This document shows positions 17,235-23,064 of a stretch of DNA of 64,000 nucleotides, piece by piece. The notes beneath the pieces were generated by a model. It was given only the letters and a program-made list of their open reading frames with translations. It was not told the DNA's origin and searched no databases. This DNA comes from Crossiella sp. SN42 (lineage in GTDB: Bacteria; Actinomycetota; Actinomycetes; Mycobacteriales; Pseudonocardiaceae). Each line of letters opens with the position of its first letter. Position 1 is the first letter of the stretch. The translations under genes and the position numbers were made by a program. The DNA is taken from contig NZ_JAMHIV010000014.1 in assembly GCF_023897065.1 (NCBI RefSeq), forward strand, positions 1-64,000, written 5' to 3'.

Positions 17235-18263
17235 ATGGCTCCCGTGAGCACCGCTGCGACCGAGACGGCCGAGCCCACCGGGCACAAGCCACGGGGCCGG
17301 GGGATCACCTCGCTGGAAGTCCTCTGCGTGGTCCTGCTGCTGGCCATCCTCTTCCAGGGGCAGATCGCCTCCATGCTGACCGACGAGCGGATCCGCACCG
17401 CCTCCACGGTGTTCATCTCCGTGTGCATCCAGGCCATGCCGTTCCTGGTGCTCGGCGTGCTGATCAGCGGCGCGATCGCCGCGTTCGTCTCACCGGAGCG
17501 GCTGCGCAAGCTGCTGCCCGGCAACCAGGCGGTCGCGGTGCCGGTGGCCGGGCTGGCCGGGCTGGCGCTGCCGGGCTGCGAGTGCAGCGCGGTGCCGGTG
17601 TCCGGGCGGCTGATGCAGCAGGGCGTGCGGCCCGCGGTCGCGCTGACCTTCCTGCTGGCCGCGCCCGCGGTGAACCCGATCGTGCTCGGCTCCACCGCGG
17701 TCGCCTTCCAGGGCGAGCCGCTGATGGTGGTGGCCCGCTTCGCCGGATCGCTGGCCACCGCGGTGGTGATGGGCTGGCTGTGGGTGCGCTTCGGCAAGAC
17801 CGAGTGGATCGCCGAGCGCGCGCTGCGCCGCTACGAGCGCCCGGCCGGGGTCTCCCGCTGGGGCGTCTTCGCCGAGACCGCCCGGCACGACCTGGTCGAG
17901 GCAGGCGGGTTCCTGGTGATCGGCGGCATCATCGCCGCGGTGCTCAAGGTGACCGCGAGCGACTTCTTCAGCTCGCTGTCCGGCCAGATCGTGCTGGGCG
18001 TGCTGGTGATGGCGGTGGCCGCGGTGGTCATGGCGCTGTGCAGCGAGGCCGACGCGCTGGTCGCGGCCAGCATGTCCGCGCTGCCGCTGCTGCCCAGGCT
18101 GGTGTTCCTGGTGGTCGGGCCCGCGGTGGACGTCAAGCTGATCGCGCTGCAGGCTGGCACCTTCGGGCGCAAGTTCGTGCTGCGGTTCGCGCCGCTGACC
18201 TTCCTGGTGGCGATCCTGTGCGGGGTCGGCGCCTTCCTGCTCGTCTTCGGTGAGGTGCGCTGA
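17235..18263 (+). CDS. Permease of the DUF318/ArsP-like family
   Basis: Membrane protein (342 aa) with about eight to ten hydrophobic segments and the family's short cysteine motif PGCECSAVPVSGRLMQQG in the first half, plus CSEADA in the second half. Homologues include the ArsP organoarsenical permease and uncharacterised metal-linked permeases. It overlaps by 1 nt (TGATG) a TIGR03943-type protein, the usual partner of this permease in actinobacteria, where the pair is often under zinc control. zur lies 2.5 kb downstream. The substrate is unknown. Confidence 0.82.
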   Translation: MAPVSTAATETAEPTGHKPRGRGITSLEVLCVVLLLAILFQGQIASMLTDERIRTASTVFISVCIQAMPFLVLGVLISGAIAAFVSPERLRKLLPGNQAVAVPVAGLAGLALPGCECSAVPVSGRLMQQGVRPAVALTFLLAAPAVNPIVLGSTAVAFQGEPLMVVARFAGSLATAVVMGWLWVRFGKTEWIAERALRRYERPAGVSRWGVFAETARHDLVEAGGFLVIGGIIAAVLKVTASDFFSSLSGQIVLGVLVMAVAAVVMALCSEADALVAASMSALPLLPRLVFLVVGPAVDVKLIALQAGTFGRKFVLRFAPLTFLVAILCGVGAFLLVFGEVR

Positions 18264-19048
18264 TGCGACGTGAGACGCAGAACGTCCTGCTGGTGCTGCT
18301 CGGCGGCGCGCTGCTCAAGATCGCGCTCAACGGCCAGTACCTGCGCTACGTCAAGCCCTCGTTCCTGCCGTTCCTGATCGCCGCCGCGGTGGTCATGCTC
18401 GGCCTGGCCTTCACCGCCATCGCCCAGGACATCATCCGGATGCGGAACAACTCCAAGCCGCTGCCCGCCCCGGTCTGCGCCGAGGCGGCCGCCGCCCAGC
18501 CCGGTCACGACCACGACCACGAGCACGAGCACGGCAAGTCCCGCAGCCCCTGGTTCCTGCTGCTGCCGGTGCTGACCATCTTCCTGATCGCCCCGCCCGC
18601 GCTGGGCGCGGCCTCGGTGAACCCGAACGACTCCCGGACCATCACCGAACCCAGCAAGCGCAACGGCAGCGCCAACTTCGAGGCCCTGCCCGGCGGCCAG
18701 GTGATCCCGATGAAGATGACCGACTTCCTCACCAGGGTGGTCTGGGACGACTCGGGCACGCTCAATGGCCGCGACGTCCGGCTGACCGGCTTCATGTACC
18801 GGGACAAGGGCGTGAACTACCTGGTGCGCATGGTGATCGGCTGCTGCGCGGCCGACGCCCAGCCGATGAAGGTCCGGCTGGACGGCCCCCGGGTGCCGGA
18901 GCTGAAGGAGATCCCGGCCGACTCCTGGCTGGAGCTGACCGGCCGGGTGCAGCCGGGCACGGCCACCGAGGCCAACGCCTACACCCCGACGTTCGACGTG
19001 AGCGAGATCAAGCCGATCCCCGCCCCCGCCGAACAGTACGAATCCTGA
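18263..19048 (+). CDS. TIGR03943 family membrane protein (permease partner)
   Basis: Protein (261 aa) with two N-terminal transmembrane segments (about 7-22 and 35-55). A cytoplasmic or periplasmic His/Asp/Glu-rich loop follows (GHDHDHEHEHGKS, about 76-88), then another hydrophobic helix and an extracytoplasmic beta-rich domain with a CC pair (VIGCCAADAQ). This is the architecture of the TIGR03943/DUF1980 proteins encoded beside DUF318 permeases. The His-rich loop suggests metal contact. The start overlaps the permease stop (TGATG). Confidence 0.8.
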   Translation: MRRETQNVLLVLLGGALLKIALNGQYLRYVKPSFLPFLIAAAVVMLGLAFTAIAQDIIRMRNNSKPLPAPVCAEAAAAQPGHDHDHEHEHGKSRSPWFLLLPVLTIFLIAPPALGAASVNPNDSRTITEPSKRNGSANFEALPGGQVIPMKMTDFLTRVVWDDSGTLNGRDVRLTGFMYRDKGVNYLVRMVIGCCAADAQPMKVRLDGPRVPELKEIPADSWLELTGRVQPGTATEANAYTPTFDVSEIKPIPAPAEQYES

Positions 19049-20716: not shown

Positions 20717-21133
20717 TCAGGCCGCGGTGCAGTCGGCGCAGGTGCCGAAGATCTCCACGGTGTGGCTGACCTCGGAGAACCCGTGCTCAGCCGCCACCCG
20801 CTCGGTCCACTTCTCCACATCCGGCCCCTCCACCTCCACGGTGCGGCCGCAACGGCGGCACACCAGGTGGTGATGGTGGTGCTGGGAGCAGCGCCGGTAG
20901 ATCGCCTCACCGGAGTCGGTGCGCAGCACGTCCAGCTCGCCGACCTCGGCCAGGCTCTGCAGGGTGCGGTAGACCGTGGTCAGCCCGATGCCCTCGCCGC
21001 GCCGCCGCAACTCCTCGTGGATCTCCTGGGCGGAGCGGAACTCATCCACCTGGTCCAGCAGCTTCGAGACCGCGGCGCGCTGCTTGGTCGAACGCAGTCC
21101 GGGCACCGAGGCCGGTCGTTCGCTCACTGTCAC
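20717..21133 (-). CDS. zur: Fur family regulator, zinc uptake regulator Zur (FurB)
   Basis: Metal-dependent repressor (138 aa) of zinc-uptake genes. The N-terminal winged helix (about 10-85) contains GLTTVYRTLQSLAEVGELDVL. The hinge and dimerisation domain carry HHHHHLVCRRCG and a C-terminal CADC, which form the structural Cys4 zinc site, and the His cluster supplies sensory ligands. Assignment to Zur rather than Fur rests on its location downstream of, and 4-nt overlap with, an SmtB-type ArsR gene, exactly as in mycobacterial smtB-zur (Rv2358-Rv2359). Confidence 0.88.
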   Translation of the reverse strand: MTVSERPASVPGLRSTKQRAAVSKLLDQVDEFRSAQEIHEELRRRGEGIGLTTVYRTLQSLAEVGELDVLRTDSGEAIYRRCSQHHHHHLVCRRCGRTVEVEGPDVEKWTERVAAEHGFSEVSHTVEIFGTCADCTAA

Positions 21134-21495
21134 TGGCCCTCCTCCACGTGCGCGACCGCGTCGACCACGATGTGCGACAGGTGCTCGTCCACCAGCCGGT
21201 ACACGACCTCCCGGCCGTGCCGCTCCCCGCGCACCACGCCGGCCGACTTGAGCACCCGCAGGTGCTGGCTGATCAGCGGCTGGGCCACCCCCAGCGCGTC
21301 CACCAGCTCGTGCACACAGCGCTCCGAGGCCCGCAGCTGGAGCACGATGGCGATCCGCACCGGCGCGGCCAGCGCCCGCAGCAGGTCACCGGCCATGGCC
21401 AGCACGTCCCCCGAGCGTTGCGGGGCGGGTGGCACCGGCGCACGGTCGGGAGAGTGCACGTGGTCATCGGCCAGCGGCGCGATCTCCCTGTTCAC
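21130..21495 (-). CDS. smtB: ArsR/SmtB family metal-sensing repressor
   Basis: Winged-helix repressor (121 aa); in mycobacteria the orthologue SmtB senses excess zinc and controls the smtB-zur operon. The HTH is ALGVAQPLISQHLRVLKSAG, followed by the wing RHGREVVYRL and the C-terminal alpha-5 helix with DEHLSHIVVDAVAHVEE, holding the Asp/His residues of the alpha-5 metal site. The GTG at 21495 was chosen because GAGGAG is 8 nt upstream. It overlaps zur by 4 nt. Confidence 0.86.
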   Translation of the reverse strand: MNREIAPLADDHVHSPDRAPVPPAPQRSGDVLAMAGDLLRALAAPVRIAIVLQLRASERCVHELVDALGVAQPLISQHLRVLKSAGVVRGERHGREVVYRLVDEHLSHIVVDAVAHVEEGQ

Positions 21496-21615
21496 GATGT
21501 GCGCTCCTCTCACCACCCGGCGCCGGGGCAGGCAACTGCGTGCCCGTGAACGACCGAGGCTACCCGTCATCCTAGGCAACTCGGTTACCGATCAGTTCGA
21601 CACACCTCGATGGAC

Positions 21616-22403: not shown

Positions 22404-22660
22404 CGGCCGCGGGGCTGGTTGGGTGGCGAGGCTGGCACAGTCGCGGGGCTGGCCCGGTCGCGGGGCTGGCCCGGTCGCGGGACTGGTCCAGTCGCGGGAC
22501 TGGTCCAGTCGTGAGGCTGGCCTGGCCGCGCCGCCGCCCGGTCGCGCTGCTGGCCCGGCTTCGAGGCTGGCCTCGTCGCGCTGCTGGGTCAGCTGCGGGG
22601 CTGGTTTGGCCGCGGGGCTGGTTTGGCCGCAGGGCTGAACCGGTCGCGAGGCTGGACCAG
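22404..22660. repeat. Degenerate 18-bp tandem repeat array
   Basis: About 13 copies of a unit resembling GGTCGCGGGGCTGGCCCG with point changes (GGGACTGGTCCA, GGGGCTGGTTTG, GAGGCTGGCCTC variants), filling the space between the stops of two convergent genes. The frames through it are only shadow ORFs of Arg/Gly/Pro/Ala-rich repeats, and none has a plausible start and SD. Confidence 0.8.
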
Positions 22661-22671
22661 CCGGGCTGCTG

Positions 22672-23007
22672 TCAGGCCGCGTGGTCGCAGGTGGCGCAGG
22701 TGCAGTCCGCGCAGGTGCAGTTGGCGCACGCGTCCGAACACCCCGCGCAGTCGCAGCGGGCGTGGTTGCAGGTCGCGCAGGAGCAGTCGGCGCACTGGCA
22801 CAGCGCGCAGGAGTCGGCGCAGTTCGCGCACTCGCACTTGGCGCACTCGTCGTAGTGCACCCCGTCCGCGGTCTGGTGTTCCCGGTGCACGTGCCCGTCG
22901 TGCAGGTAGTCCACGTGGTCGCCGTGCACCACCGCGTCGTGCCCGCAGCCGGGGCCGTGGGTGTGGCGGTGCGTTTCGGCCGGACGGTGCTCAATGGTGC
23001 TGGTCAT
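22672..23007 (-). CDS. His-rich plus Cys-rich metallothionein-like protein
   Basis: Protein of 111 aa in two blocks. Residues 1-52 are His-rich, with HGDHVDYLHDGH (28-39) and 12 of the 14 histidines; this block resembles a widespread small actinobacterial His-rich protein. Residues 55-107 hold 19 cysteines in alternating CxxC and CxC spacing (for example CAKCECANC, CQCADCSCATC); one more Cys is at 21. Such density and spacing indicate a metallothionein-type metal-cluster domain. It has no signal peptide or membrane segment, so it is cytoplasmic. The ATG at 23007 follows GGGAGG. Zinc or copper storage/detoxification is inferred from composition and from smtB-zur 1.5 kb away. A candidate operator lies 42 nt upstream. 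Confidence 0.85.
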   Translation of the reverse strand: MTSTIEHRPAETHRHTHGPGCGHDAVVHGDHVDYLHDGHVHREHQTADGVHYDECAKCECANCADSCALCQCADCSCATCNHARCDCAGCSDACANCTCADCTCATCDHAA

Positions 23008-23048
23008 GGTCTGCCTCCCACTGGATCGTCGAACCACCGCATACTCAT

Positions 23049-23064
23049 ATGCGCACCTGTGCAT
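23049..23064 (-). promoter_or_regulatory. Candidate operator of the metallothionein-like gene
   Basis: Inverted repeat ATGCGCA-CC-TGTGCAT (one mismatch) 42 nt upstream of the ATG, within the only AT-richer stretch of this promoter region. Short ATG/CAT half-sites of this kind are used by ArsR/SmtB-type metal sensors, but binding is only inferred. Confidence 0.35.

Follow-up and report, generated by a model that had tools for sequence, protein, structure and literature searches.

The named bacterial metallothioneins come from cyanobacteria, pseudomonads and Mycobacterium tuberculosis, according to the accessible part of PMC10612145, in which the cyanobacterial SmtA is described as binding up to four Zn and MymT of M. 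tuberculosis is regarded as a copper metallothionein that has its own motif. The bacterial (cyanobacterial) metallothioneins are reported to be regulated by SmtB-type repressors, with one Zur-activated exception, in the available text of PMC9337993. The alpha5 motif of SmtB, given as DXHXAXXXXXAXXHXXE(H), is also present in the nickel sensor NmtR (PMC9241078, in the portion consulted). As for the actinobacteria, the section of PMC4531530 at hand mentions a possible Frankia metallothionein, with three or four CXXC motifs among several His, and the MrnA/Streptomyces metallothionein-like domain as a candidate. In M. smegmatis, the SmtB-regulated gene examined in the accessible part of a paper on SmtB and Zur was the exporter zitA, and the word metallothionein is absent from that paper (PMC7174638).

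The gene described here belongs to Crossiella sp. SN42, whose 9.7-Mb genome carries the window, i.e. the whole 64,000-nucleotide stretch of DNA that was analysed. An ORF at 22672-23007 on the minus strand, with an ATG start, encodes a 111-aa protein (P0001), a candidate metallothionein that joins a His block (HTHGPGCGH...HGDHVDYLHDGHVHREH, residues 1-51; 22855-23007, minus strand) to a Cys-rich tail. The initial annotation had counted 12 His in the first 52 residues and 19 Cys within 53, figures that are right on the translation, the 19 Cys falling in residues 55-107; as a whole, the protein possesses 20 Cys and 14 His, with Tyr34 and Tyr52 as its only aromatic residues, Phe and Trp being absent. 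The tail is made of Cys55 and two tandem CxCxxCxxxCxxCxCxxCxCxxCxH copies, a 25-aa module whose duplication goes beyond what had been noticed before. Repeat 1, with the extra Cys55, covers residues 55-82 (22762-22845, minus strand), and repeat 2, which has the same spacing and 17/25 residues identical to repeat 1, covers residues 85-109 (22681-22755, minus strand). The Shine-Dalgarno sequence claimed for this gene is present as GGGAGG at 23014-23019 (minus strand). Directly downstream of the gene, window positions 22404-22663 hold a degenerate 17-bp (51-bp) tandem array of CGCGGGGCTGGCCCAGT.

Since the metal-binding residues are near-perfectly conserved and the gene often lies beside a repressor gene of the zinc-sensing type, P0001 and its relatives probably form a family of bacterial metallothioneins that store zinc and have been poorly recognised. 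To the more specific reading of a little-recognised actinobacterial metallothionein, zinc- (or Cd-) induced and SmtB-repressed, we assign a probability of about 0.72. In the broad sense of the term, P0001 has sequence traits of a metallothionein: it is small and Cys-dense, with CxC/CxxC motifs and few aromatics, and its Cys ligands are conserved across species.

Once duplicates were removed, the Cys-tailed form was found at 54 distinct loci, that of the window included, the closest named relative found being that of Crossiella sp. S99.2 (94% identity). Some match was obtained in 114 of the 297 sampled genomes of the window's family, and 40 of these 297 genomes (own included) gave a full-length match at E<=5.6e-41, the next match being at 1e-12; among the matches listed, the weaker ones align for the most part with the His block. 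When GTDB species genomes were scanned for exact short peptide patterns only, 47 loci were obtained, with both the His block and the Cys tail in 18 of them (L033-L050). The hosts of these Cys-tailed proteins include Crossiella, Pseudonocardia, Lentzea, Actinocrispum, Actinokineospora, Nocardia stercoris and one Streptomyces, as well as Nocardioides, Cutibacterium, Actinomyces, Boudabousia and others. At the level of the phylum, profile matches were present in 43 of 396 sampled genomes and full-length matches in two (own and G510), the His block thus being fairly common, with a patchy distribution of the Cys-tailed form; in the same sample, genome G335 carries the His block with one Cys repeat.

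Two other origins of the tail or of the gene were considered and rejected. The Cys tail is not a free-standing family, the tail alignment having matched two of the 396 Actinomycetota genomes, each of which also has the His block. Concerning mobile elements, no plasmid or phage match covered 80% of the query; partial matches, mostly to the His block, came from six plasmid and two phage records, and the C. avidum protein had no plasmid matches. In viral contigs, the tail pattern retrieved nine stretches, all of them Cys-rich runs with no sign of the family.

The alignment comprised 38 rows drawn from 48 loci, after leaving out five duplicates, four close relatives and L049 (single repeat). No variation is seen in these rows at any of the 20 Cys or at 13 of the 14 His, with a mean column identity of 1.00 for Cys and 1.00 for the tail His vs. 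0.64 for the remaining tail positions. The two copies of the module are of equal length in 34 rows, with 12-23 of 25 residues identical between copies, and the second copy is one residue longer (26 residues) in four rows. Counted from HGP onwards, 51 of the 54 loci encode proteins with 20 Cys, two with 21 and one with 11, the last being the single-repeat protein of C. namnetense (L049). Small variants of the Cys spacing exist, e.g. at L133-L135. As for the distant actinobacterial relative in G335 (L085), it combines the His block with a single 9-Cys repeat, lacks the extra Cys55 and is possibly a simpler version of the family.

The initial annotation had itself raised the possibility of a poorly conserved, one-off tail of low complexity. 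This is ruled out by the invariance of the 20 Cys over 38 rows and by the 20-21 Cys found at 53 of the 54 distinct loci. Also, the Cys density of P0001 is not due to chance, because this conservation is accompanied by a binomial P of 9e-25 for at least 19 Cys among 53 residues (assuming 1% Cys). The gene is under purifying selection: whole-gene dN/dS varies from 0.04 to 0.27 among 14 close pairs. Between the ligands, the tail is mostly looser in dN/dS than the His block, one tail comparison being at 0.65 (L008/L010), and invariant ligands with looser residues in between is the pattern expected of a ligand scaffold. In the tree of the 38 rows, 11 of the 35 inner branches are well supported.

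None of the 38 members matched any Pfam or NCBIfam model at E<=1. This includes PF02069, the model of SmtA/BmtA, with 0/38 members at E<=1 and no match in the window's genome; among 14 control genomes, it matched in Synechococcus elongatus only. A profile search of the PDB returned six chains up to E 10, the best (0.044) being Synaptotagmin-like protein 4, and none is named a metallothionein. In the open-access literature, none of the matches listed concerned this His–Cys family.

The likeness to SmtA/BmtA lies in a small Cys/His protein linked to an SmtB-type repressor. SmtA has nine Cys, the number found in each repeat unit of the present family. In contrast to SmtA/BmtA, this family possesses two tandem 9-Cys repeats with 19 tail Cys, a long N-terminal His block and a regular CxC/CxxC alternation; as far as can be deduced, it would work like the cyanobacterial SmtA, yet it fails the SmtA Pfam profile. 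MymT, set beside this family by description only, is likewise actinobacterial, Cys-rich and small, whereas the Frankia candidate, compared through its description in the available text, has far fewer Cys motifs. An in silico survey by Schmidt et al. (2010, J Basic Microbiol) reportedly predicted potential actinobacterial metallothioneins and 'metallohistins'; judging by its title, these candidates are Cys-rich and His-rich proteins predicted in the same phylum, and the survey may list members of this family.

The proposal of a two-block metallothionein-like protein has on its side the lack of a model match, the conservation of the ligands and the link with ArsR/SmtB genes. The label of 'new metallothionein class' is only partly earned: actinobacterial metallothioneins and 'metallohistins' had, by the title of the survey, been predicted in silico in 2010, possibly with members of this family among them. 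A stronger version would see here a new modular family, with a 'metallohistin' capture block and one or two 25-residue 9-Cys/1-His storage modules, independent of SmtA and forming a convergent SmtB-metallothionein circuit in Actinomycetota; in our estimate, its odds are even.

The His block had been thought to be widespread on its own, and it does occur without the Cys tail in many genomes. These His-only relatives have the His block in common with P0001 and lack the Cys repeats, many of them possessing two His blocks in tandem, and they are annotated as 'zinc transporter permease' or 'hypothetical protein'. The former name is borne by a protein encoded on a Citricoccus plasmid (L113, 3962-4117), a His-only relative of 51 aa, and looks misleading for a protein of this small size. 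An ArsR/SmtB gene, recognised by its pattern, precedes the His-only relatives in 4 of 29 loci (L054, L071, L073 and L078), and the relative at L062 likewise follows an ArsR gene. Proteins with a double His block (L061, L062, L072 and L074) were found in MAGs named Acidobacteria, Lysobacterales, Anaerolineae and Pirellulaceae; the His block therefore extends beyond Actinomycetota. Matches to the His block were also observed in two unannotated human-gut phage records (MT836058.1, 11451-11582; MT837699.1, 5405-5512).

Both regulatory genes placed near P0001 by the initial annotation are real, and lie about 1.1-1.2 kb downstream on the same strand. The smtB gene, coding for an ArsR/SmtB-type repressor (listed as 21130-21579, minus strand; HTH_5, 2.8e-14), has an alpha5-like site, DEHLSHIVVDAVAHVEE, and its start, read by eye, is probably a GTG near 21496. 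Its end is overlapped by zur, which codes for a FUR-family regulator (20717-21133, minus strand; FUR, 4.9e-37). The window SmtB has a Ser in place of the first Ala of the alpha5 motif, and its site is also found in close relatives. Beyond zur, at 17235-19048 on the plus strand, lie an ArsP_1-type permease and a TIGR03943/DUF1980 permease subunit, which are possibly part of a zinc neighbourhood.

At the level of the whole family, a helix pattern located an ArsR gene at most 2 kb away in 31 of the 54 loci. None was found within the DNA seen in the other 23, the loci of 3.3 kb covering about 1.5 kb per side; in the 17 loci of at least 9 kb, none was found at a greater distance than 2 kb. The DxHx10HxxE site is intact in 30 of the 31 ArsR genes, the 31st being the window's own, which is truncated at the end of L001 but complete in the window. 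Among ten previously unseen loci, six have an ArsR gene.

Three arrangements were encountered. In eight loci (L043, L045-L050 and L084), from Cutibacterium, Nocardioides, two Actinomycetaceae and G510, the ArsR gene immediately precedes the family gene in the same orientation; measured in seven of the eight, the overlap between the two ORFs is 4-23 nt. This direct adjacency of the repressor gene in other genera goes beyond the initial annotation. In five loci (Pseudonocardia, a Pseudonocardiales MAG, G201 and G292), the ArsR gene is found ca. 0.5 kb downstream on the opposite strand. Finally, 18 loci, including Crossiella, have it 1.4-1.8 kb downstream on the same strand, and the order smtB then zur is seen in the window and at L038.

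Upstream of the P0001 gene, a conserved promoter motif, TGCGCATATGAGTAT (23041-23055, minus strand), is a candidate SmtB operator. Its general form, GCATATGAGNAT, of which the window has an exact copy, is present upstream with at most one mismatch in 23 of the 54 loci and with at most two in 29, and many Pseudonocardiaceae carry it in common. Either GCATATGAGNAT or an ArsR gene is found in 45 of the 54 loci, neither being found in nine (L013, L016, L024, L030, L039, L040, L041, L044 and L130). With at most two mismatches on either strand, 30 of 48 loci carry the motif close to the gene (8.4 kb) vs. 8 occurrences in 282 kb elsewhere, the count of 30 including five duplicates and the motif having been derived from the loci later counted, many of which are close relatives. 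In the ten previously unseen loci, it was found with at most two mismatches on the forward strand in four (one exact), and on the reverse strand only in a fifth. The chance expectation at two mismatches is about one site per 64-kb window (shuffle mean of 1.06 for a 14-letter version).

In the window's genome, this exact copy is the only one, and three more sites were found at two mismatches vs. two for a reversed-pattern control; one of the three, inspected at L081, lies inside a long open frame. Further operator copies in the genome were rejected, the three matches being close to the control. The window has no second copy of the motif and therefore none at smtB-zur, so the repressor acting on the window gene could be another ArsR protein. 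Control by Zur was likewise rejected for the window, which has no site with three mismatches or fewer to the Zur-box consensus TGAAAATNATTTTCA.

The upstream palindrome of the initial annotation is better supported as a conserved motif than as a palindrome. The test compared the best 9-bp inverted repeat anywhere upstream, rather than the motif itself, with 300 shuffles: at L001, the locus of the window gene, and in 14 relatives, this repeat was reached by 78 to 284 of the shuffles. As a whole, upstream palindromes were not above shuffles in 15/15 non-operon loci and in 5/7 of the operon loci tested (L084 being left out). The two above shuffles are both Nocardioides smtB promoters, in which a long palindrome runs from a TTGACA box to the start codon (L048: 13/14 pairs, 0/300 shuffles; L047: 11/14, 4/300). 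In M. smegmatis, SmtB sites were likewise not findable by motif search, according to the accessible part of PMC7174638.

Metal binding and its stoichiometry, the identification of the actual repressor with SmtB and of the inducer with zinc, and the role of the His block are inferred here. The product would be a metallothionein, presumably cytosolic. At low zinc, the gene would be kept off by a repressor of the ArsR/SmtB type that has a zinc site in alpha5; as zinc (or cadmium) rises, metal-loaded SmtB would leave the promoter and the protein would be made. Its two 9-Cys/1-His repeats would sequester zinc in thiolate clusters, with a tail capacity of roughly 7-8 Zn by analogy with SmtA, and the His block may offer weaker, faster-exchanging sites that capture the metal or hand it over.

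The protein might instead serve as a zinc donor or chaperone, or as a starvation reserve rather than a detoxification store, supplying for instance CobW-type GTPases or apo-enzymes. CobW GTPases are encoded near the gene in two of the 14 loci examined (L042 and L048), and the His block, which is present elsewhere without the Cys tail, is a module in its own right. However, the window has no Zur-box-like site within the above threshold, and metal derepresses SmtB-type repressors (PMC9241078, in the portion consulted), which makes such a role unlikely.

The scan of the neighbours covered 64 of the 133 called ORFs at 14 loci, and there is no copper family among the 25 of 84 matched families listed. 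Cu(I) is also bound by thiol-rich proteins, and by general chemistry CxC/CxxC-rich tails bind it readily. The Cys repeats could thus hold Cu(I) in thiolate clusters and confer protection from copper, as in a Cu(I) metallothionein like MymT, the M. tuberculosis protein being considered a copper one in the text cited above. We hold this to be quite unlikely, since the regulatory company is of the zinc type, with an alpha5 ArsR in 30 of 54 loci, smtB and zur side by side in the window and at L038, and the two CobW neighbours, and since copper families are missing from those listed.

Nickel/cobalt buffering under an NmtR-like sensor is very improbable: the alpha5 motif is common to NmtR and SmtB, which would allow Ni or Co as the inducer, and His-rich proteins bind Ni, but a 19-Cys tail is, in its chemistry, a ligand set of the zinc/cadmium/copper type rather than a typical nickel one, and the window has zur beside smtB.

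The preferred reading thus remains that of a zinc-storing, SmtB-repressed metallothionein. If true, a conserved, modular and SmtB-linked family suggests that zinc handling in Actinomycetota involves storage, beyond efflux. The one-repeat and two-repeat proteins would then form a natural series on how cluster number sets buffering capacity.
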